From: Hellea sp.
GTDB taxonomy: Bacteria > Pseudomonadota > Alphaproteobacteria > Caulobacterales > Maricaulaceae
Direction: 5' to 3'
DNA length: 52,750 bases
Assembly: GCA_020627655.1 (NCBI GenBank)
Contig: JAHDGM010000010.1
Coordinates: forward strand, 14,058 to 66,807
Positions 2,464 to 14,300 of the stretch are shown here, piece by piece. The notes below the pieces were generated by a model, which worked only from the letters and a program-made list of their open reading frames with translations, made no database searches and was not told the origin of the DNA. The position numbers were made by a program, and so were the translations under genes. Position 1 is the stretch's first letter; every line of letters begins with the position of its first letter.

Positions 2464-3552
2464 ATGAATATCAAGCTATTTTTATCAACTTTCATTGGCT
2501 CCGCCTTATGTCTGGGGGCTTGTGGAGGGGGAAGTAGTTCAACAGTTACGCCACCTCCCTCATCGTCTGGAGGATCAGGAGGAAATACGGGTGGTGGTAG
2601 TTCAGGGGGTGACCCTCTGCCTGTACCTGACACGCCGCCTATCGGTGAGGATTATCACCCTGCGGGTAAGAATTGGGTTCTTAGCTGGTTCGACGAATTT
2701 GATGGATCGAATCTGGATCGTACCAAGTGGGAAGTTGAAGAAAGTTGCTGGGGCGGCGGTAATAATGAGCGTCAATGCTATACAGACCGCGAAGAAAATG
2801 TGGAGGTTGTCAATGGTGTTTTACGCCTCAAAGCCTACCCGGAAGTTTTCACAGGTCCTGAGTTCCCGCAGGGTTGGCCAGACGGGCGGGGAGACCAGAT
2901 TACGCAGCAATATACGTCCGGTAAGGTCAGGACTAGGGAGCTTGCCGATTGGAAATATGGCCGCTTCTCTGCTCGTATGAAACTACCAAAAGGGCAAGGG
3001 ACATGGCCGGCATTTTGGATGCTCCCAGCAGATAACGTATATGGAGGCTGGGCAGCGTCCGGTGAAATTGATATTATGGAGGCGGTTAATTTAGGCGCCA
3101 GCTGTAATGATTGTGAGGGCGATGTTGGTGAAAACCGATCATCAGGCGCTCTTCATTTTGGAGGCGAATGGCCGGATAATAGATTTGAGACTGATAAGTG
3201 GACCTTATCGGGAGGCGCAGAAGCTGTTGACCAATATCATGTTTTTGGTGTGGAGTGGGGAGAAGGCCGTTTCAACTGGTTTGTCGATGGTGTGAAACTC
3301 TACACTCTTAATGCTGAAGACTGGTATAGTTCGAGCGTTGAAAAAACGCAGAACCCGAATGCGCCATTTGATCAAGCTTTTTACCTTATGTTCAATCTGG
3401 CAGTCGGTGGTAATTTGTCCGAAGGTAATAATGCCGGAGGATTTCAGGTGGGCAGTTTTCCTGATGAAGTCTTGGTGGATTGGGTGCGTGTTTATCAGTG
3501 TGAATTTGACGGGTCTACAGGACGCGCCTGTATGGATGGCGAGACGCCATAA
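2464..3552 (+). CDS. GH16 family endo-beta-glucanase (laminarinase-like) lipoprotein
   Basis: The protein has 362 residues from ATG 2464, which follows a GGCAGG ribosome site; the frame also extends 22 codons upstream into the terminator hairpin, which is not credible coding. A signal peptide ends in lipobox L17-G-A-C20, so it should be a lipid-anchored protein. Residues 21-55 are a Ser/Gly/Pro-rich tether. The GH16 domain fills the rest, with the catalytic signature E201-I-D203-I-M-E206 (nucleophile E201, acid/base E206) and flanking substrate-binding Trp residues. GH16 enzymes of this kind cleave beta-1,3 or mixed-linkage glucans such as laminarin. The receptor upstream and sodium symporter downstream fit uptake of the products. 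Exact linkage specificity cannot be read from the sequence. Confidence 0.92.
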   Translation: MNIKLFLSTFIGSALCLGACGGGSSSTVTPPPSSSGGSGGNTGGGSSGGDPLPVPDTPPIGEDYHPAGKNWVLSWFDEFDGSNLDRTKWEVEESCWGGGNNERQCYTDREENVEVVNGVLRLKAYPEVFTGPEFPQGWPDGRGDQITQQYTSGKVRTRELADWKYGRFSARMKLPKGQGTWPAFWMLPADNVYGGWAASGEIDIMEAVNLGASCNDCEGDVGENRSSGALHFGGEWPDNRFETDKWTLSGGAEAVDQYHVFGVEWGEGRFNWFVDGVKLYTLNAEDWYSSSVEKTQNPNAPFDQAFYLMFNLAVGGNLSEGNNAGGFQVGSFPDEVLVDWVRVYQCEFDGSTGRACMDGETP

Positions 3553-3589
3553 GCTTTGTAATTCAATAGAAATGCATTAGATAACGATC

Positions 3590-5113
3590 ATGGGAAAGCG
3601 TATTAATAATATCGTGATCGTGGGGGGCGGAACGGCAGGTTGGTTGACGGCCGGGCTTATTTCAGCACACCACAAAAAACGAGGTGCAAATGGGTTGAAC
3701 ATTACACTCATTGAATCTCCTGAGATACCGACAATTGGTGTTGGAGAGGGCACTTGGCCGACTATTCGAAAGACTTTATCGCGTATAGGATTAAAAGAAT
3801 CCGATTTTCTTGTGGCTTGTGATGCTTCGTTTAAACAAGGCTCTCGGTTTGATGGTTGGATTTCGGGGGATGAGAAAGATTCTTATCATCATCCATTTGA
3901 GCTTCCGATATCTCCAAATGGGAGCGATCTTATTCATGCGTGGCAGAAATTTGCCCCGAAAAAATCTTTTGCGGAAGCTGTCTGTGTTCAGTGCGCACCC
4001 GCATTGAAACACTTGGCGCCACGACAACGCAGCATGCCGGATTACGCTGGGGCTTTGAACTATGCTTATCATCTTGATGCTGTGAAAATGGTGAATCTGT
4101 TGCGCTGTCATGTCACTAAGAATCTGGGCGTTACTTATATTGAGGATCATGTCATCCAGATAAATGGTGACAAAGATCAGGATATTTCGTCTGTGACGAC
4201 TCGTGAAAACGGTAATGTCTCCGGTGATTTATTCATTGATTGCACGGGAACGTCCTCATTGCTCTTGGGTCAGCATTACGGCGTAGAGTTTATAGATCAG
4301 AGCCATGTCTTGTTTAATGACAGGGCCGTTGTTACTCAGGTTCCAGTTAATGAAAATGATCCGATTGCTTCAGAGACTATTTCTACCGCACATGAAGCTG
4401 GTTGGATATGGGATATAGGTCTGCAAACCCGCCGAGGTGTTGGTTGCGTTTACGCGTCCAAATATATGAAAGATAATCAGGCAGAGCATATTCTTCGGAG
4501 TTATATCCGGGATGAAGATGTTGATGTCCGTATGCTGAAGTTTACTCCGGGACATCGCAGTCATTTCTGGCACAGAAATTGTCTTGCTATCGGCTTGTCT
4601 GCTGGCTTTCTTGAACCTTTGGAAGCCTCTGCCATTGTTTTAGTTGAGCTATCTGCTGAAATGCTAGTAATGAACCTTCCCATGAACAGGGCTGCTATGG
4701 ACATCGAAGCCAAAAAGTTTAATGCGCTTTTCACTTATAGATGGGCTCGAATAATCGAATTTTTAAAATTACATTATGTACTGAGCCGCCGTAATGAACC
4801 TTTTTGGCGAGATAATCGTGATCCAGAGACCATTCCAGATCAGTTGCAAGATAACTTGACAATATGGGAGTACAGATCTCCATCTCAATATGATTTTGAA
4901 CAGGCCAGCGAGGTATTTCCCGCTGCCAGTTATCAATATGTTTTATATGGAATGGGGAGCAAGCCACTTGCTTACCCGCCGCAAGAATCTGTTGATTTAG
5001 AGGTTTTGAAACAGAAAATGCAAAATGTTGTAAGGAAACAGAGAAGTCTTGCTGCGGGCTTACCAACCAATAGAGTCTTATTGGCAGGCCTTGGAAAAGA
5101 AGCTAGTAATTAA
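3590..5113 (+). CDS. Flavin-dependent tryptophan halogenase-like protein 1
   Basis: This 507-residue protein is of the tryptophan halogenase family (PrnA-like). The N-terminal FAD-binding motif is GGGTAGW near residue 15. Lys82, in the F-K-Q-G segment, matches the catalytic lysine of PrnA (Lys79). The segment P-L-E345-A-S matches the region of the active-site Glu/Ser pair, but Ser is replaced by Ala. The family signature WxWxIP appears as W272-I-W-D-I-G277, with Gly for Pro. It starts 37 bp after the GH16 gene on the same strand. True family members use FADH2, O2 and halide to halogenate an indole or other electron-rich ring; the substrate here is unknown and the altered motifs make ordinary tryptophan halogenation doubtful. 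No flavin reductase is adjacent. Confidence 0.88.
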   Translation: MGKRINNIVIVGGGTAGWLTAGLISAHHKKRGANGLNITLIESPEIPTIGVGEGTWPTIRKTLSRIGLKESDFLVACDASFKQGSRFDGWISGDEKDSYHHPFELPISPNGSDLIHAWQKFAPKKSFAEAVCVQCAPALKHLAPRQRSMPDYAGALNYAYHLDAVKMVNLLRCHVTKNLGVTYIEDHVIQINGDKDQDISSVTTRENGNVSGDLFIDCTGTSSLLLGQHYGVEFIDQSHVLFNDRAVVTQVPVNENDPIASETISTAHEAGWIWDIGLQTRRGVGCVYASKYMKDNQAEHILRSYIRDEDVDVRMLKFTPGHRSHFWHRNCLAIGLSAGFLEPLEASAIVLVELSAEMLVMNLPMNRAAMDIEAKKFNALFTYRWARIIEFLKLHYVLSRRNEPFWRDNRDPETIPDQLQDNLTIWEYRSPSQYDFEQASEVFPAASYQYVLYGMGSKPLAYPPQESVDLEVLKQKMQNVVRKQRSLAAGLPTNRVLLAGLGKEASN

Positions 5114-5137
5114 GTCTTATAAAAATGGAAAATTTGA

Positions 5138-5851
5138 ATGCCTAATCATGTTGCCGTCAATCCAAGAGATCATAGTGATCTGAGGATTTTACCTGAACGC
5201 TCTGAGGATATGGGGGATGCTCTCATGTGCTGTGTAACGTTTCCTGAAGAGTTCCGCGCTCTACAAGCGCATTATCCAATTTTGTTTCAACTGAAAGATG
5301 ATGGCGAAATATTGTGCTTGGCATTATTTGGATTTGAGAACGGGGAAAATTTATTCCTGAAGAATGGGAAATGGGATGCCCGCTATATCCCATTGGCCAT
5401 GGATATTCAGCCATTTATGATCGGGAGACCTCAGTCGAAAAATGAAGACCGTAAAGTCGTTATTGATTTGGATAGCCCGAGAATTGGAAAGGGCGAAGGA
5501 GATCGTTTGTTTGAAGAAACAGGCATGGCGACGACTTTCCTGGAAAATATTTCCACGAAACTCGCTTATCTGGATCAAGGTTTTCAGAACGCGTCAGCTT
5601 ATATTGAAACACTGCAAAAACTTGAGTTGCTTGAACCTTTGACGATCGATGTCACGACAAAAGACGGTACTAAAAACCGTCTTGTCGGGTTTCACACTAT
5701 TAATGAAGAAAAGTTTCATGCTCTCGACGGAAAAGCGCTCGAAAGTTTACAGACAAAGGGATATTTGTTTCCTACATATATGCTGTTGGCATCCTTATCG
5801 AATTTATCTGACTTAATAGCGCGACGCGAAACACTGCACCTGCATGGTTAG
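5138..5851 (+). CDS. SapC family protein
   Basis: This 237-residue protein resembles the SapC family: an N-terminal segment with N-P-R-D-H, an E-F-R-A-L...Y-P-I-L-F strand-helix unit near residues 38-52, and an aromatic/Pro region with R-Y-I-P-L near residue 85. It has no signal peptide or membrane segment. The family was named after a Campylobacter S-layer locus gene, but its biochemical role is not established, and similar genes recur beside TonB receptors and halogenase-like genes in Alpha- and Gammaproteobacteria (from memory). The start at 5138 is 25 bp after the first halogenase gene. The end overlaps the cupin gene by 8 nt (ATGGTTAG), implying translational coupling. Confidence 0.85.
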   Translation: MPNHVAVNPRDHSDLRILPERSEDMGDALMCCVTFPEEFRALQAHYPILFQLKDDGEILCLALFGFENGENLFLKNGKWDARYIPLAMDIQPFMIGRPQSKNEDRKVVIDLDSPRIGKGEGDRLFEETGMATTFLENISTKLAYLDQGFQNASAYIETLQKLELLEPLTIDVTTKDGTKNRLVGFHTINEEKFHALDGKALESLQTKGYLFPTYMLLASLSNLSDLIARRETLHLHG

Positions 5852-6875
5852 CCAGCCTGCTGATATATTCCCTGCGTTACCGCCTCTGCAAGAAGTTCAA
5901 AAAACGTCTGTCGCGGAGCTGCGCGAAGACATGTTGAAAAACAAACCTTTTGTAGTTCGGGGGTTTGTCAAAGATTGGCCATTGGTAAAAGCGGGATTGA
6001 AATCTGCCAAAGCTGCTCGAGAATATTTGCTTGAACGGGCCGTTGATCGTCCTTTTGAAGTCTCGATGGGCTCCAACGAATTTGATGGACGTTTGTTTTA
6101 TCGTGATGATATGTCAATGAATGTACAGCAGGGGCGGGCGCGTTTACCCCTAATATTCGAACGTATTGGTAATGTTGAACAGGAACATAATCCTCCAATT
6201 GTTTATTTAAGTGCGATTAGCACTAAAACATATTTTAAGGGGCTAAGAGAAGACAATCCGATAGGCTTGGAAGAAAAGCGACCTATAGAGAGTATCTGGA
6301 TTGGCACAAAAACCCGTATCGCGGCTCATAATGATTTTCCAGATAATCTTGCCTGTGTAGCTGTGGGACAAAGACGGTTCACCGTTTTCCCACCAGAGCA
6401 GTTCCGGAATCTATATATCGGACCCATTGATAATACGCCTGCTGGCCGTGCGATTAGCATGGTGGATTTTCATGATCCGGACTATGAGAAATACCCTCGC
6501 TTTGAACAAGCTTTAAAGGCTGGGTTTACGGCTGTGCTTGAACCTGGTGATGCTATTTATATTCCGTCGTTGTGGTGGCATCATGTAGAAGGATTGAGCC
6601 CGTTTAATGTGCTTATGAATTATTGGTGGCGTGAAACGCCGCAATTTATGGGCGCGCCGCAAAATGCCTTAAACCATGCTATTATGGCTATCCGAGATTT
6701 ACCAGATCATGAAAAGCAAAACTGGCGAGATCAGTTTGATTATTATGTGTTTGACGCTTCTAGTGCAGTGACAGCTCATATAGCTGAGCATGGCCGCGGG
6801 GTGCTGGGGCCTATGACGCAACAAAATGCCGGGAAAATTCGATCATTTCTAATCAAGATGTTGAACAATGAATAA
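5844..6875 (+). CDS. JmjC/cupin_8-type Fe(II)/2-oxoglutarate oxygenase-like protein
   Basis: This 343-residue protein has the cupin-like (JmjC-related) fold expected of asparaginyl-hydroxylase-type oxygenases. The iron-binding triad is visible: H162-N-D164, and a distal His in the I-P-S-L-W-W-H246-H segment. The N-terminal K-P-F-V-V-R-G motif is also typical of the family. Relatives beside halogenase and SapC genes are sometimes called Pass1-related. With an intact metal triad it probably hydroxylates a protein side chain or small molecule; the substrate is unknown. Start and stop both overlap the neighbours by exactly 8 nt (5844-5851 and 6868-6875), so it should be made in step with SapC and the second halogenase. 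Confidence 0.87.
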   Translation: MVSQPADIFPALPPLQEVQKTSVAELREDMLKNKPFVVRGFVKDWPLVKAGLKSAKAAREYLLERAVDRPFEVSMGSNEFDGRLFYRDDMSMNVQQGRARLPLIFERIGNVEQEHNPPIVYLSAISTKTYFKGLREDNPIGLEEKRPIESIWIGTKTRIAAHNDFPDNLACVAVGQRRFTVFPPEQFRNLYIGPIDNTPAGRAISMVDFHDPDYEKYPRFEQALKAGFTAVLEPGDAIYIPSLWWHHVEGLSPFNVLMNYWWRETPQFMGAPQNALNHAIMAIRDLPDHEKQNWRDQFDYYVFDASSAVTAHIAEHGRGVLGPMTQQNAGKIRSFLIKMLNNE

Positions 6876-8367
6876 AAATAACCGAACCATAAAACGTTAT
6901 GTAATCGCAGGTGGCGGAACTGCCGGATGGATGGCGGCCGCCATGCTTGCCAAGACGATGGGGGAAGAAATTGACTTAACACTGATTGAATCTGATATGA
7001 TTGGGACTATCGGTGTGGGTGAAGCCACCATCCCGCCACTTGTTCAGTTTAATGACATTTTAGGCATTAATGAAGCCGATTTTATGAGGGAAACTCGGGC
7101 AACTTTCAAATTGGGTATTAACTTTGAAAACTGGAAAGATGTAGGGGAGTCTTACTTTCATTCCTTTGGTCACACTGGGAAAGATCACTGGACTGCAGGG
7201 TTTCAGCATTTTTGGTTAGCTGGTCAAAAACGAGGACTTGCCTCTTCATATGATGATTACTGTCTGGAAGTTGTCGCTGCTTTTCAAAACAAGTTTGCCC
7301 AGCTTCCAAAAAGTGGACTGAACTACGCCTATCATCTCGATTCTTCAGCCTACGCTAAATTTCTGCGAAAAATAGCGGAAGAAAACGGCGCAAGCCGCAG
7401 GGAAGGCCTGATCGAAACTGTGCAACTGGATCCTGAAAATGGATATATCCAAGCCTTAAAGCTGCAAACAGGTGAAATCATAGAAGGTGATTTTTTCATT
7501 GATTGCACTGGATTCCGGTCAATATTAATGGGGCGTGCCCTTCATGTTGGTTATGATGATTGGACGCATTTTTTACCGTGTGATACGGCGATTGCCGTAC
7601 AGACTCGATCTGTTATTGAGCCGCCGCCTTATACACGGGCGATTGCCCATGATGCCGGTTGGCAATGGAGAATCCCGCTTCAACACCGTACTGGTAATGG
7701 CCAGGTTTATTGTTCCCGACATCTAGACAAGGATAGTGCTCTTCAGCGTTTTCTGGATAACATAGAAGGTGAAACGATTACGGATCCCAAATTTATCCAT
7801 TTCCAAACCGGGGCTCGCCGAAGGCAATGGGAAAAGAACTGCATTGTATTGGGGCTCGCGAGTGGATTTATGGAACCGTTGGAATCCACGTCTATTCACC
7901 TGATCCAGCGTTCGATAATGCGATTTTTGCGGCTGATGCCCAATAATCGTATCGAGTCGGCGGACGTCAAAGAATTTAACGATCAAACTTTTGAAGATAT
8001 GGATAAAATTCGCGACTTTTTGATTATGCATTATTGCGTTACTGAACGTAGGGATAGCGAATTTTGGCGATATTGCGCCAATATGGATATTCCGGATGCT
8101 GTTCAGCAAAAGATTGATTTATTTTCCAATACAGCTCGTGTTTTTCGAAAAAACGAAGAGTTGTTTGCCGAAAATAGTTGGGTGCAGTGCATGATGGGAC
8201 AGGGGATTACGCCAAATAGTTTTCACACCCTAGCAGATAAAATGAGCGATAAAGAGCTGAGTTACTTTTTGGACAAGATCAAAAATCTATTATCCAAGAC
8301 GGTTTCAAAGTTACCACTTCACCAGGATTATGTCCGCCGCTATTGCGGTATAACCGAGATGGACTAA
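6868..8367 (+). CDS. Flavin-dependent tryptophan halogenase-like protein 2
   Basis: This 499-residue protein is a second tryptophan halogenase-family member. It has GGGTAGW near residue 12 for FAD, Lys81 in F-K-L-G (PrnA Lys79 equivalent), an intact W-Q-W-R-I-P signature, and E339-S340 in the P-L-E-S-T active-site segment. Unlike the first copy, all canonical catalytic positions are present, so it is the better candidate for a working halogenase. It starts inside the cupin gene (ATGAATAA overlap) and ends 12 bp before the symporter. The two halogenases share family motifs but have clearly diverged, so they are not a recent duplication. The halide and acceptor cannot be inferred. Confidence 0.9.
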   Translation: MNKNNRTIKRYVIAGGGTAGWMAAAMLAKTMGEEIDLTLIESDMIGTIGVGEATIPPLVQFNDILGINEADFMRETRATFKLGINFENWKDVGESYFHSFGHTGKDHWTAGFQHFWLAGQKRGLASSYDDYCLEVVAAFQNKFAQLPKSGLNYAYHLDSSAYAKFLRKIAEENGASRREGLIETVQLDPENGYIQALKLQTGEIIEGDFFIDCTGFRSILMGRALHVGYDDWTHFLPCDTAIAVQTRSVIEPPPYTRAIAHDAGWQWRIPLQHRTGNGQVYCSRHLDKDSALQRFLDNIEGETITDPKFIHFQTGARRRQWEKNCIVLGLASGFMEPLESTSIHLIQRSIMRFLRLMPNNRIESADVKEFNDQTFEDMDKIRDFLIMHYCVTERRDSEFWRYCANMDIPDAVQQKIDLFSNTARVFRKNEELFAENSWVQCMMGQGITPNSFHTLADKMSDKELSYFLDKIKNLLSKTVSKLPLHQDYVRRYCGITEMD

Positions 8368-8379
8368 CCCAATCCTAGC

Positions 8380-9912
8380 ATGACAATTCTTGATACGATC
8401 ATTGTCATTGGGTTGATCACGGCTTTGATCCTTATTGGCCTGGGCGGGAACAGTAAGGCTGAGTCCACCGAAGAATTTTTTCTTGCAGGACGCCAATTAA
8501 GATGGTGGCAAATTGGGTTTTCATTATTTGCTACAAACTTTTCGGCTTCTGCCATTATCGGTTTGACCGGCGCGGCTTATCTGACTGGTATCGCCATTTA
8601 TAATTACGAATGGGTCGGAATTCTGGCTATGGTATTTTTTGCTTTTGTGCTGGCCAAAGTAGTCCGTAACAGCCAAGTTTACACGATCGCAGACTATTTG
8701 ACGCAAAGATATGATGCGCGCATCAAAACGGCCTATTCCGTGTTTATTATCTTTCTTATTGTCTTCATTGATATGGCAGGATCTCTCTATGCCGGCGGGT
8801 TATTACTGTCTCAGATCATCCCTTCACTTTCTATGAATGGCATTATATTTTTGATCATGGTACTGGCTGGAATTTACTCAGTAATTGGTGGTCTTAAGGC
8901 CATATCGCGCACGGATATGTTTCAGTCCTTGATATTGATCGCGGGTGCTTTTTTGATTTTCTTCTATACAATGAAGGCCGTTGGTGGTTGGTCTAATATG
9001 GCTTCAAACGCCGCTCCTGAAAGCCTGTCATTGATTAGGGGGCTGGATGACAGGGCGGTACCTTGGACCGGGTTGTTGACGGGGATACCTGTACTATGTG
9101 CGTATTTCTGGCTGACGAATCAAAACATGGTACAGTGGGTGCTTAGTGCCAAGTCAGTTCCGGAAGCCCGCAAAGGGTTGTTAATGGCCGGATATCTAAA
9201 ACTCTTGGTCTTGTTTGTTATTATCATTCCGGGTGTCGCTGCCGTTCAGATTATTCCGGATCTGGCAGAAGCAGACCGCATATATCCAGCGCTCTTGCTA
9301 GAGCTCCTACCTTCTGGCGTTCTGGGTATAGTTCTGGCCGGGTTTGTAGCGGCTTTGATGTCGAACACGGATTCAACGCTTCACGCAGCTTCTACAATTA
9401 TCACCATGGATTTCGTGCGCCGTAAATATCCAAATGTTACGCCGCGTCGTCTGGTGTGGTCGGGACGTCTGATAACAGTCATAATTATTATTATCAGCGC
9501 CATTTGGGCGCCTATGATCGGGCAGTTCGGGACTCTGTTTGAATATGTACAGGGATTGCTGTCCTATGCGGTTGCGCCGTTTGTCGTAGTTTATCTTGGG
9601 GGTCTGTTCTGGCCTAGAGCTAATACGGCGGGTGCTGTCACGGCGCTCTCAGTCGGGGGGGTAACGGCATTGATTATTGCGATTTTGCAGCGGGCAGAAA
9701 TAATCGAAGTTCATTATTTGCATGTACCGCTGCCGATTAGTCTCTTGTGTCTTGTCGCTTTGATTTGCGGGAGCATTCTGACATCCGCGCCCAAGGCTCA
9801 ATCAAACTTACTCTGGGCGCCAAATAGAGACCGAAATATACAGACATCCGACCTTTGGGTCGCGGGCTGCCTGATCGCTTTGACGCTTCTGCAGGTTTAT
9901 ATTTTCAGGTAA
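8380..9912 (+). CDS. SSS family sodium:solute symporter (SGLT-like sugar transporter)
   Basis: This 510-residue membrane protein has about 13-14 hydrophobic helices and the layout of the solute:sodium symporter family: an early E-E-F-F-L-A-G-R segment, a helix with N-F-S-A-S-A-I-I-G, and D-Y-L-T-Q-R-Y in the following loop. SSS proteins use the sodium gradient to import sugars, amino acids or other solutes. As the last gene of the glucanase locus it probably carries glucose or short gluco-oligosaccharides across the inner membrane. The 12-bp gap to the second halogenase gene suggests a shared transcript. The start codon has no clear ribosome site. Confidence 0.9.
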   Translation: MTILDTIIVIGLITALILIGLGGNSKAESTEEFFLAGRQLRWWQIGFSLFATNFSASAIIGLTGAAYLTGIAIYNYEWVGILAMVFFAFVLAKVVRNSQVYTIADYLTQRYDARIKTAYSVFIIFLIVFIDMAGSLYAGGLLLSQIIPSLSMNGIIFLIMVLAGIYSVIGGLKAISRTDMFQSLILIAGAFLIFFYTMKAVGGWSNMASNAAPESLSLIRGLDDRAVPWTGLLTGIPVLCAYFWLTNQNMVQWVLSAKSVPEARKGLLMAGYLKLLVLFVIIIPGVAAVQIIPDLAEADRIYPALLLELLPSGVLGIVLAGFVAALMSNTDSTLHAASTIITMDFVRRKYPNVTPRRLVWSGRLITVIIIIISAIWAPMIGQFGTLFEYVQGLLSYAVAPFVVVYLGGLFWPRANTAGAVTALSVGGVTALIIAILQRAEIIEVHYLHVPLPISLLCLVALICGSILTSAPKAQSNLLWAPNRDRNIQTSDLWVAGCLIALTLLQVYIFR

Positions 9913-11387: not shown

Positions 11388-14300
11388 ATGAAAGCAATTG
11401 TCAAATGGTGGGCCAGTAACCCAGTCGCTGCAAATTTGCTGATGTTTATTTTCCTGATCGGCGGCCTGGTCAGCTATTTGCAGATCGAGCGGGAATTAGA
11501 TCCTTATGTGGAGTTTCCGGGGGCAAATGTGCAAGTGGCCTGGCCTGGCGCGTCGCCTCAGGACGTTGAAGAGCAGATCGTTGTACGCATGGAGGAAGCC
11601 TTCTCCGAAATACAGGGCGTGCAGCGCATGTGGTCTTTTGCCGGTGAAGGCGGGGGTGCTGTTACGGTGATTGCCAAAAAAGGCGTGGATGAAGCCCGGT
11701 TCATGCAGGATATCAAACGCCAAATGGACGCCATTAATACAATGCCGCCAGCCGCTGAGAGGCCGCAGATCAACCCTTTTAGAAATCGGGATGAAATGAT
11801 CCGCTTGGCCGTCTCGGGTGACGAGAGCGTCTCTGAACGTGATCTTAAACGGTTTGCAGAGAAGACACGGCGCGAAATTGCTTTATTAGGCTATGTGCCG
11901 GCCGTTGAACTGTTTGGCGTTCGTGGCGAAGAAGTCTCTATTGAAGTCTCCGAAGAAGCCATGCGTCAATATGGATTGACCTTTGCTGAAGTGGCGCGTG
12001 CAGTTCGCGGAACTTCGATCAACACATCATCAGGACAGGTTCGCACGGACACAGGCAATATGCAGCTGCGCATGCGCAAACAGGCTGATACAAAGGAAGA
12101 ATTTGAAGATATTATCGTTCGGCAGGATGCCAGCGGGGCGGCTATTCGGGTCAAAGATATAGCTGAGGTCATTGACGGGTTTGAGCAGGTCAATCTGTTG
12201 GCGACGGTCAATGGGGATCGAACAATTCTCGTTCAGGTCATGAGCGGTCCGCAAATGGATATTGTTAAAATGTCTGAAAACGTCAACAACTATGTTGACG
12301 GGATCAGAGAGAGCCTGCCAGCCGGCATGTCTATTACCTTCTGGGATGACGGCGCCGAGATTTACACAGGCCGTATCAATTCAATTGCCAGTAATTTCTT
12401 TCTGGGGCTTTTATTAGTCTGCGCCACTCTCATGTTATTTTTAAGGCCAATCATCGCGTTTTGGGTAACTGTGGGTATTGGCGCCGCATTTGCTGGCGGG
12501 CTCGCTTTGCTACCCATGTTTGATGTTTCGTTTAACTTTATTTCGACCTTTGCTTTCTTGTTGGTGATCGGCGTTATTGTTGATGACGCGATTATCGTCG
12601 GCGAAGCCATTCACTTTAGAACGGAAGAGGGCGAGAGAGGCCTCGAAGCAGCCGTCAATGGGACTAATATGGTGTTAAAGCCAGTTGTCTTTGCCGTCCT
12701 GACGACGATGATATTCTTTGCGCCCTGGATGTATTTATCTGGAGGCACGAGTGAGTTCACACGGGCTATTTCTCTTGTTGTAATTCTGGCATTGACGTTT
12801 TCTCTTCTGGAATCTCTTTTGATACTGCCAGCGCATTTGGCGCATCTTAAACCAGCCAATCCGAAAAGCCGGATCATGCGCCTACAAGGAAAAATCTCTG
12901 ATAGCCTGATTTGGGTGTCCGAAAACGTCTATCGACCCATGATCACCTTTGGCCTGAAACGTCGATATCTGACGGCCTCAGTTTTCGTGGGGATCATGAT
13001 TATGTGTGTCGGGCTTGTGGCCAATGGCTTTGTGAAGTCTACCTTTTTCCCGGAACCTGAATCTGATCAAATCTCTATCTCGGTAGAGCTGCCTGAAGGT
13101 ACGCCCTATAGCCGATCTGAAGAGGTCTTGAAGCAAATTCAAGTCGCTGAAAAGCAGCTCGAAGAAGAGATCGAATCTAAGGGCGGTGAGCTTATTGAAA
13201 ACTGGTATACCCGTTCGCGTGACAATAATGTTCTGGCATTGGTTAAGTTGGTGCCGCCGGAAACACGCACTTTGAGCGCCAAGGAAACAGCAGAGCGTTT
13301 GCGAGAATTAATTGGAGAAGTTCCTGACGCTGAGACTATTTCAGTCGACTACAGAGACGGTAATGACGGCCCGCCAATCCAGTATGTTTTAAATGCTAAA
13401 TCCTTTGAGGATCTGAACGCCGGTGCCGATGACCTGATGGACAAACTCCGTAGCTATGATGGTGTCTATAACGTGGTCAACGATATGGAGAGCGCGGCTG
13501 AGGAAGTTCAGTTTGACTTAAAGCCCGGGGCTGAGTCATTAGGCATAACCCATGCCGAGGTTGCTCGTCAGGTTCGTCAGGGATTTTTTGGTGAAGAGGT
13601 TCAGCGCCTCCCTCGCGATGGTGAAGATGTTCGGGTTTATGTACGCTATCCACGGGCTGATCGGGAAAGTCTTGATTTTCTTAATTCAATCCGCGTGCGG
13701 ACAACAGATGGCCGTGAATTACCATTGGCCAGCGTAGCCGAGCTGCGCTTTGAAAAGGGAACAAACCGTATCCTAAGACGTGAGCGCCAGCGAGCAATCG
13801 TGATCAGTGCGGAAGTGACATCTGAGCGTATCGAAGAAATCCGTAAAGACTTAAACGAAAACTTCTTTCCGGAATTTGAAAAAGCGCATCCAAAGGTCAA
13901 GCGTGGTAATATTGGCCGGGCGCAAGGTGAGGCAGAATTTAGAGCCGAGCTGTTTACGCTCCTCTTGATTGCGCTGGGCGTGGCATATTTTCTGATAGCG
14001 GTTTCGTTTAAGTCTTATGCAGAGCCGATCTTGATCCTGTTTGCGGCGATACCGTTTTGTTATTGCGGCATGATCATGGGGCATTTGGTTATGGGGCAGG
14101 CGATTTCTGTCCTGTCGCTACTCGGGATGTTTGCAGCGGCCGGCGTGGCGGTGAATGACAATCTGGTCTTAATTGATTATGTACACCAGCTTCGAGATAA
14201 AGGCATGGACGGAGCCGAGGCTCTTATCGAAGCTGGAACTCGCAGATTTAGGCCCATCTTATTGACATCTCTAACGACATTTATCGGATTGATGCCATTA

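Follow-up and report, generated by a model that had tools for sequence, protein, structure and literature searches.

The window analysed here is the whole 52,750-nucleotide stretch of contig JAHDGM010000010.1 (positions 14,058 to 66,807 of the forward strand, assembly GCA_020627655.1) from the alphaproteobacterium Hellea sp., and the element in question is a cassette of four genes, encoding two flavin-dependent halogenase-like proteins (halogenase 1 and halogenase 2, hereafter Hal1 and Hal2), a SapC protein and a Cupin_8 protein, which lies downstream of a TonB-dependent receptor gene. A first-pass annotation had delimited and named these genes as one tight run, with which both the open reading frames, all on the + strand, and the Pfam matches agree. 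The features are given below, numbered from the first base of the window, except for the last, which is numbered in L006, a stretch reaching upstream of it.

1 to 2379, + strand: TonB-dependent receptor, C-terminal 792 amino acids (open reading frame call), a member of the cassette-linked receptor clade
2407 to 2435, + strand: strong terminator-like hairpin of 12 pairs with a T run, located after the receptor gene and before the enzyme genes, a probable partial terminator
2464 to 3552, + strand: GH16 glucanase-like lipoprotein (PF00722, E 7.5e-15), with an LGAC lipobox and an EIDIME catalytic motif recognised by eye
3590 to 5113, + strand: Hal1 (PF04820, E 2e-118)
5138 to 5851, + strand: SapC (PF07277, E 4e-64)
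5844 to 6875, + strand: Cupin_8 / JmjC-type 2-oxoglutarate Fe(II) oxygenase, FIH-like (PF13621, E 1.6e-66)
6868 to 8367, + strand: Hal2 (PF04820, E 8e-186)
8380 to 9912, + strand: sodium:solute symporter of the SSF family (PF00474), which closes the tight gene run
L006:12089 to 13210, + strand: LacI gene, upstream of the receptor

From the GH16 gene to the symporter gene, the intergenic distances are, in order, 37, 24, -8, -8 and 12 bp, the two negative values being 8-bp overlaps of SapC with the cupin gene and of the cupin gene with Hal2. The N-terminal 209 amino acids of the receptor are encoded upstream of the window, starting at L006:13378, and a scaffold gap of 10 N (L006, about 14047 to 14057) immediately before the first base of the window interrupts this gene; overlapping sequence is found on either side of the gap, and the interruption is an assembly artefact and not a broken gene. 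A GH3 gene and two SSF-type genes are found upstream on the opposite strand, and the presence of receptor, GH16, GH3, SSF and LacI genes together makes this a TonB-receptor carbohydrate utilisation locus, in which the combination of GH16 and GH3 fits beta-1,3-glucan as the presumed substrate. In the loci of this kind familiar from Xanthomonas, the receptor, glycosidases, an inner-membrane sugar carrier and a regulator stand together in the same way, the halogenase-SapC-cupin cassette being the extra element at the window locus. The word 'halogenase' occurs 0 times in the portion available of PMC1790865, which deals with the Xanthomonas TonB-receptor loci.

The first-pass annotation had made its idea depend on linkage of these genes across genomes, and such linkage was found: both it and the gene order are conserved between classes and tied to a receptor clade, with the core order TonB receptor, (Hal1), SapC, Cupin_8, (Hal2) recurring across Alpha-, Beta- and Gammaproteobacteria. 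A set of 111 cassettes with receptor, SapC and cupin was assembled (110 distinct by cupin sequence, since L086 and L179 are duplicates), and Hal2 was present in 101 of these and Hal1 in 69. The first set of loci was drawn from 547 relatives of the window cupin in named genomes, of which the best 80 were taken, a selection that over-represents the window cupin's own type. In these best 80 of 547, profiles matched a receptor at 77/80 loci, SapC at 77/80 and a halogenase at 74/80, some of the misses being contig ends, and wherever the parts were present their order was receptor, Hal1, SapC, cupin, Hal2; according to record titles, the taxa include Sphingomonadaceae, Hyphomonadaceae, Xanthomonas, Massilia, Duganella and SAR92 relatives. 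In a survey of the phylum, the cupin was found at 60 places in 32 of 398 genomes, with a receptor within 5.5 kb in 55, a halogenase within 3.5 kb in 49 and SapC within 1.5 kb in 37. Additionally, an independently annotated plasmid of Sphingobium sp. RAC03, an isolate of algal phycosphere origin, has this arrangement with a single halogenase, carrying receptor, SapC, cupin, halogenase, GH16, LacI, MFS and GH3 genes. Six genomes were picked because they carry the cupin, in most cases as multiple copies. There, a receptor of the family was found no more than 5 kb away from 53 of 63 halogenase genes and from 17 of 19 Cupin_8 genes, the share of the genome that close to such receptors being 3.6 to 6.8% in each of five of the six (the window's draft was left out). 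At 6.8%, the binomial p is about 1e-51 for the halogenases and 2e-18 for Cupin_8, and chance linkage is excluded. Neighbouring genes in genomes with a high guanine-plus-cytosine content were called by a simple script.

The cassette is therefore real, widespread and locked to a receptor clade, while its component families and halogenase types were already known. In the literature searched, which left most subscription journals outside its scope, no account of this cassette and no paper naming SapC together with a tryptophan halogenase was found, and SapC is not named in the available part of PMC12710340. Two papers mention a tryptophan halogenase together with a TonB-dependent receptor, one of them dealing with oil-exposed communities. 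Five loci of the best-80 set have kept SapC and the cupin and lost both halogenases. SapC and Cupin_8 form the more stable pair, and since they persist where both halogenases are gone, the halogenases look like optional tools, which refines the first-pass description, together with the finding that Hal1 is divergent and altered in its motifs. A DUF6445 gene was found near the cassette in 11 of the 110 distinct loci, following Hal2 in L189 (12005 to 12706), and in L216 (7517 to 9027) a DUF6445-like gene, recognised by eye, and a second cupin follow Hal2. A full cassette was also found on L119, a contig labelled Bacillus, which is probably mislabelled or contaminating DNA.

The receptor tree comprised 184 receptors. 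Of these, 44 come from five of the six cupin-bearing genomes and are unlinked, meaning that neither a halogenase nor a cupin gene lies within 5 kb of them. Receptors were detected with a profile derived from 13 sequences, all cupin-adjacent, which misses other receptor families. On this tree, the SapC cassette corresponds to a single clade, whose 116 tips represent 113 distinct genes (the duplicate tips being the window and L006, L086 and L179, and L091 and L215). SapC and the cupin lay within 5.5 kb for 110 of these 113 receptors, and the remaining three have part of a cassette, with the cupin and Hal2 in L165, the cupin alone in L197 and, for the second receptor in L172, a halogenase located at the margin of that stretch. 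No unlinked receptor of the same family falls inside the clade (0/44), and a second receptor of L195, placed outside it, is simply near a cassette. A second cassette type, which has Cupin_8 and halogenases and lacks SapC, belongs to another receptor clade (13/13), and in a third receptor group the cupin alone stands beside three of six members. Across the six genomes, 36 of 92 receptors lay within 5 kb of a halogenase, namely all 14 top-scoring ones and 22 of the other 78; because the receptor profile was built from cupin-linked receptors, the linkage of the top-scoring ones reflects clade membership and is not independent evidence.

Other partners of the 110 cassettes are looser, GH3 being found near 66, GH16 near 42 and a LacI-type gene, recognised by eye, near 60; representatives of the GH3 and MFS neighbour clusters were confirmed by Pfam. 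In the surroundings of the 44 unlinked receptors, GH2, GH43, GH28, alginate lyases and sulfatases are among the 25 listed of 75 Pfam families (80 of 141 open reading frames), and these 25 include no halogenase, SapC or cupin. The cassette thus goes with a receptor lineage and does not track sugar use in itself, and it is not needed for glycan uptake in general, because receptors of the same family that lack it adjoin glycosidase and alginate lyase genes. Pairwise distances between receptors correlate with those of SapC (r 0.82), the cupin (0.81), Hal2 (0.74) and Hal1 (0.82), values which include shared ancestry and are uncorrected for it. In nine within-genome pairs of cassettes, the receptors were 1.05 to 1.27 apart and the cassette proteins 0.66 to 1.54, the copies within a genome being about as diverged as their receptors; in seven hand-picked between-genome pairs, the receptors were closer in five (0.27 to 0.67) and not in two (0.93 and 1.09).

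Regarding the halogenases, Hal1 and Hal2 of the window score 396 and 619 bits against PF04820, with a curated cut-off of 21, and each carries the GxGxxG motif for flavin adenine dinucleotide (FAD) as well as a Lys and a Glu at positions which we take to be the catalytic residues of flavin-dependent halogenases. By motif search, the Hal2 proteins of the cassettes have the FAD motif in 101/101, the Lys in 90/101, the Glu site within LEST or LEAT in 96/101 and WxWxIP in 96/101, window Hal2 included in the last. The Hal1 proteins retain the FAD motif in 68/69, the Lys in 68/69 and the Glu in 66/69; WxWxIP is found in 0/69, being replaced by WxWxIG/A/S (WxWxIG in window Hal1), and LEAS stands in place of LEST in 62/69, again including window Hal1. 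Hal1 and Hal2 form two well-supported separate clades, holding 69/69 Hal1 and 100/101 Hal2 genes with few genes from other contexts in each, and each lineage is fixed in its place in the cassette. Hal1 is a divergent paralogue whose chemistry may differ. Halogenase-like genes lacking the FAD motif, the catalytic Lys and the other motifs sought were observed beside intact ones, mostly near receptors, at L277:6886 to 8343 and L280:6855 to 8267 and also in L278, L281, L294, L211, L226, L227 and L234.

Flavin halogenases of the BrvH and Xcc4156 type have been studied as biocatalysts. The best solved match of window Hal2 is Xcc4156 from Xanthomonas campestris (PDB 6y1w, 638 bits), and Hal2 of the X. 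arboricola locus L159 is related to this enzyme very closely (1025 bits); L159 has the arrangement TonB-dependent receptor, SapC, Cupin_8 and Hal2, differing from the window in the lack of Hal1. Because L159 Hal2 is so closely related, Xcc4156, a characterised brominase, is very probably of this cassette type, as judged from sequence likeness, and this would restrict the search for its substrate to proteins or peptides associated with a single receptor clade. BrvH from Brevundimonas BAL3 (PDB 6frl) belongs to the same branch of the superfamily (432 bits to window Hal2), but it is nearer to halogenases of loci without SapC and Cupin_8, the closest of four halogenases compared being that of L285 (620 bits), a receptor-halogenase-halogenase locus without SapC. 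The closest solved relatives of Hal1 are PDB 2pyx, named Tryptophan halogenase, and 9ltb (511 and 571 bits, respectively). MibH-type halogenases from pathways for ribosomally synthesised and post-translationally modified peptides (RiPPs) act on tryptophan within a peptide and not on the free amino acid. They are named as a parallel in the available sections of the BrvH paper (PMC5945002) and the Xcc4156 paper (PMC7336383), from which all statements citing them here are drawn; the window cassette differs in that its gaps are too small for a precursor-peptide gene. The statement in the first-pass annotation that some such halogenases accept indole and bromide is correct for both BrvH and the Xcc enzymes (PMC5945002, PMC7336383). 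It was reported that Xcc4156 brominates indole derivatives in vitro and does not accept free tryptophan (PMC7336383), that the substrate sites of both BrvH and Xcc4156 are open (PMC5945002, PMC7336383), and that the BrvH gene adjoins a second halogenase gene (PMC5945002). A peptide substrate was suggested by the authors of both studies.

In the window cupin, the iron triad HxD...H is intact (H162, D164 and H246) and invariant in five relatives, and among the cassette cupins the HxD pattern was found in 98/111 and the WWH pattern in 105/111. The top solved relative is FIH, a distant one (E 1.5e-28, 103 bits), followed by JMJD5 and JMJD7, and these alignments span profile positions 10 to 267, the triad included; a difference is the Arg of the cupin at the position of a FIH Lys, presumably the residue that binds 2-oxoglutarate. 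FIH, JMJD5 and JMJD7 act as hydroxylases of proteins or peptides. The solved relatives also include C2orf60 (TYW5), an enzyme acting on RNA. A phage origin of the cupin was considered and rejected, the lone match in a phage collection being an unannotated faecal contig with a halogenase match, probably bacterial DNA.

SapC scores 216.6 bits against PF07277 (cut-off 28.9), and its structure was predicted with a mean pLDDT (predicted local distance difference test) of 95.7. No match to the predicted fold was obtained in the PDB (best Foldseek E 0.21; 0 of 997 chains at Z 2) or among the viral models of BFVD, and the modelled fold looks unprecedented among the libraries searched; the family thus gains a set of partners as well as a confident predicted fold without a solved match. 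In the host's class, PF07277 was found at 67 places in 56 of 289 genomes, and 60 SapC flanks were examined in addition to the window copy, 55 of them holding generic SapC outside a cassette and 4 belonging to cassettes (L081, L084, L086 and L091), while L087 has no SapC match over 150 residues. No family recurs in more than 6 of the 55 generic flanks. SapC by itself was ruled out as a marker of the cassette, most copies being generic and without conserved neighbours. This common alphaproteobacterial SapC (L040 and most of L041 to L099) is a separate, unlinked gene without a conserved neighbour, and a natural fusion of DUF6065 and SapC domains occurs at L099:9587 to 11233.

Within cassettes, the median gaps from match to match are 41, 34 and 19 bp, and the median distance from receptor to next gene is 131 bp, an interval in which 31 of 108 cassettes have a terminator-like hairpin, versus 1.4 expected from mononucleotide shuffles. 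Such a hairpin agrees with abundant receptor and scarce enzyme, the ratio required by an enzyme-substrate pair, and other reasons for it may apply. A RiPP cluster was rejected because the cassette gaps, to which this argument is confined, leave no room for a precursor-peptide gene.

The cassette enzymes look like modifiers of proteins or peptides. As the likeliest of the explanations considered, it is tentatively proposed, with confidence that falls clearly short of even, that the cassette forms a module for protein modification which serves a single clade of TonB-dependent sugar receptors. According to this proposal, SapC would recognise a protein segment in the cytoplasm, Cupin_8 would hydroxylate a side chain, and Hal2, together with Hal1 where present, would oxidise or brominate an aromatic side chain; the target would most likely be the receptor polypeptide, or a short part of it, prior to Sec export, and the hairpin after the receptor gene would fit high receptor and low enzyme expression. 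The purpose might be the tuning of uptake or the shielding of the receptor from phages and receptor-borne toxins. In its boldest form, somewhat unlikely as it stands, the proposal states that bacteria halogenate and hydroxylate their own outer-membrane sugar receptors, a cytoplasmic SapC adaptor handing the unexported chain to the FIH-like hydroxylase and the one or two halogenases, with one cassette per receptor; the modification may then affect ligand gating or make the receptor invisible to phages and receptor-borne toxins. If the receptor is indeed the target, this would represent a new kind of outer-membrane protein modification.

Evidence for a receptor target was sought at the level of residues. 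Two tryptophan columns of the receptor alignment, which in the window receptor lie within DSWGG and WNWRE, are occupied at 0.99 to 1.00 in both linked clades versus 0.34 and 0.27 in the 44 unlinked receptors, and the overall tryptophan content is 1.4 to 1.5% in linked versus 1.1% in unlinked receptors. The presence of these residues in receptors linked to halogenases only was predicted before that set was fetched; it comprised 20 receptors, from which that of L294, at least 9 kb from its halogenases, was dropped. With p values that are uncorrected for relatedness here and below, the first tryptophan was found in 12/19 halogenase-only versus 15/44 unlinked receptors (p 0.051), either tryptophan in 15/19 versus 22/44 (p 0.050) and both in 8/19 versus 5/44 (p 0.014). 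The test gives enrichment at best, and the receptor-target idea is not confirmed by it.

A number of observations weigh against the proposed module. The tryptophan of NWR was present in just 11/19 halogenase-only versus 12/44 unlinked receptors (p 0.026), and both clade-typical tryptophans are kept in 6/6 receptors whose loci lost both halogenases. A residue-loss test was based on the rationale that a receptor residue needed by the halogenases might vanish where these are lost; among 89 main-group receptors, no column of W, Y, H, aromatic, N, D, K, R, C or P was lost with Hal1 or Hal2, the Hal2 half having low power with only six receptors that lack Hal2, and the sole column below 1e-4 runs opposite to the prediction. 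No enzyme has an N-terminal signal peptide recognisable by eye, though the receptor is exported, so that modification would have to precede export, and we know of no case of such pre-export receptor modification. Regarding linkage, four of the 60 cupin places in the phylum survey have no receptor, halogenase or SapC in reach, and the receptors of the SapC-cupin loci L084 and L200 fall in a sister group just outside the clade. Finally, part of the pairing could be due to common control by LacI and to vertical inheritance, with no enzyme-substrate relation involved. The interpretation of the first-pass annotation is thus partly supported: the linkage is conserved and goes with a receptor clade, while action on the receptor or a peptide gained no clear support from the residue-level tests, and a role in sensing or protection would be speculative.

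Among the alternatives, the one that survives best, unlikely though it is, holds that the product of the cassette is a small molecule or free peptide, newly made or modified, for instance a brominated or hydroxylated derivative of indole or tryptophan that acts as a sugar-induced signal, deterrent or cofactor. Flavin halogenases generally make metabolites, which favours this explanation. Moreover, Xcc4156 and BrvH use free indole-type substrates in vitro (PMC7336383, PMC5945002), but the turnover of indole by BrvH is so low that its authors doubt it as the natural substrate (PMC5945002). Genes for carriers, ligases or peptide synthesis are not frequent among the listed neighbour clusters, few of which were named by Pfam, and one cluster resembling a nonribosomal peptide synthetase by eye was found in only 4 of 110 loci. 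In addition, genomes hold up to four copies of the cupin, most adjoining their own receptor, when one copy should suffice for a diffusible product.

Less probable is the explanation in which the target is a different protein (for example TonB/ExbB, the symporter, a chaperone or SapC itself) and the receptor is a co-regulated partner only. The FIH-like nature of the cupin and the open substrate sites reported for BrvH and Xcc4156 speak for this, the cytoplasmic location suits an internal target, and SapC and the cupin are the most constant partners; however, this explanation leaves unaccounted for the lock of each cassette type to its own receptor clade.

The cassette could also belong to a general response, its genes accompanying sugar-induced receptor operons through mere co-regulation, with which the frequent LacI-type and GH3 neighbours (60 and 66 of the 110 cassettes) agree. 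This is rather improbable, given that the 44 unlinked receptors of the same family have glycosidases and regulators and yet no halogenase or Cupin_8 within 5 kb, and that the pairing with glycosidases is looser than that with SapC and Cupin_8. The least probable explanation, in which the halogenase-like proteins are flavin- or oxygen-dependent sensors or accessories of receptor expression and Hal1 especially may have lost halogenation, draws on the altered WxWxIP (69/69) and LEST (62/69) motifs of Hal1 and on the motif-less genes of related loci, but it conflicts with the FAD motif, Lys and Glu that Hal1 keeps, with the motifs kept by most Hal2 and with the brominase activity reported for the close relative Xcc4156 (PMC7336383).

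The host genome (2.59 Mb, 89 contigs) contains four full-length flavin halogenase genes, two of them at the window locus, a fifth match being short and weak, and one Cupin_8 gene (search at E 1e-12). At L007:6946 to 8466, another of these halogenases is followed by a secreted ecotin-domain protein (8588 to 9454), with no TonB receptor seen in the 18-kb stretch, and the third halogenase locus (L008:3707 to 9490) consists of a receptor, a weakly sulfotransferase-like gene and a convergent Hal1-like halogenase. Two phage loci with a halogenase were examined as well. The halogenase of phage S-H38 (L236) is not among virion genes, and that of the Pelagibacter (SAR11) phage HTVC008M (L235:5905 to 7299) lies inside a block of virion genes and adjoins dioxygenase genes, an arrangement that could be a parallel to the cassette.

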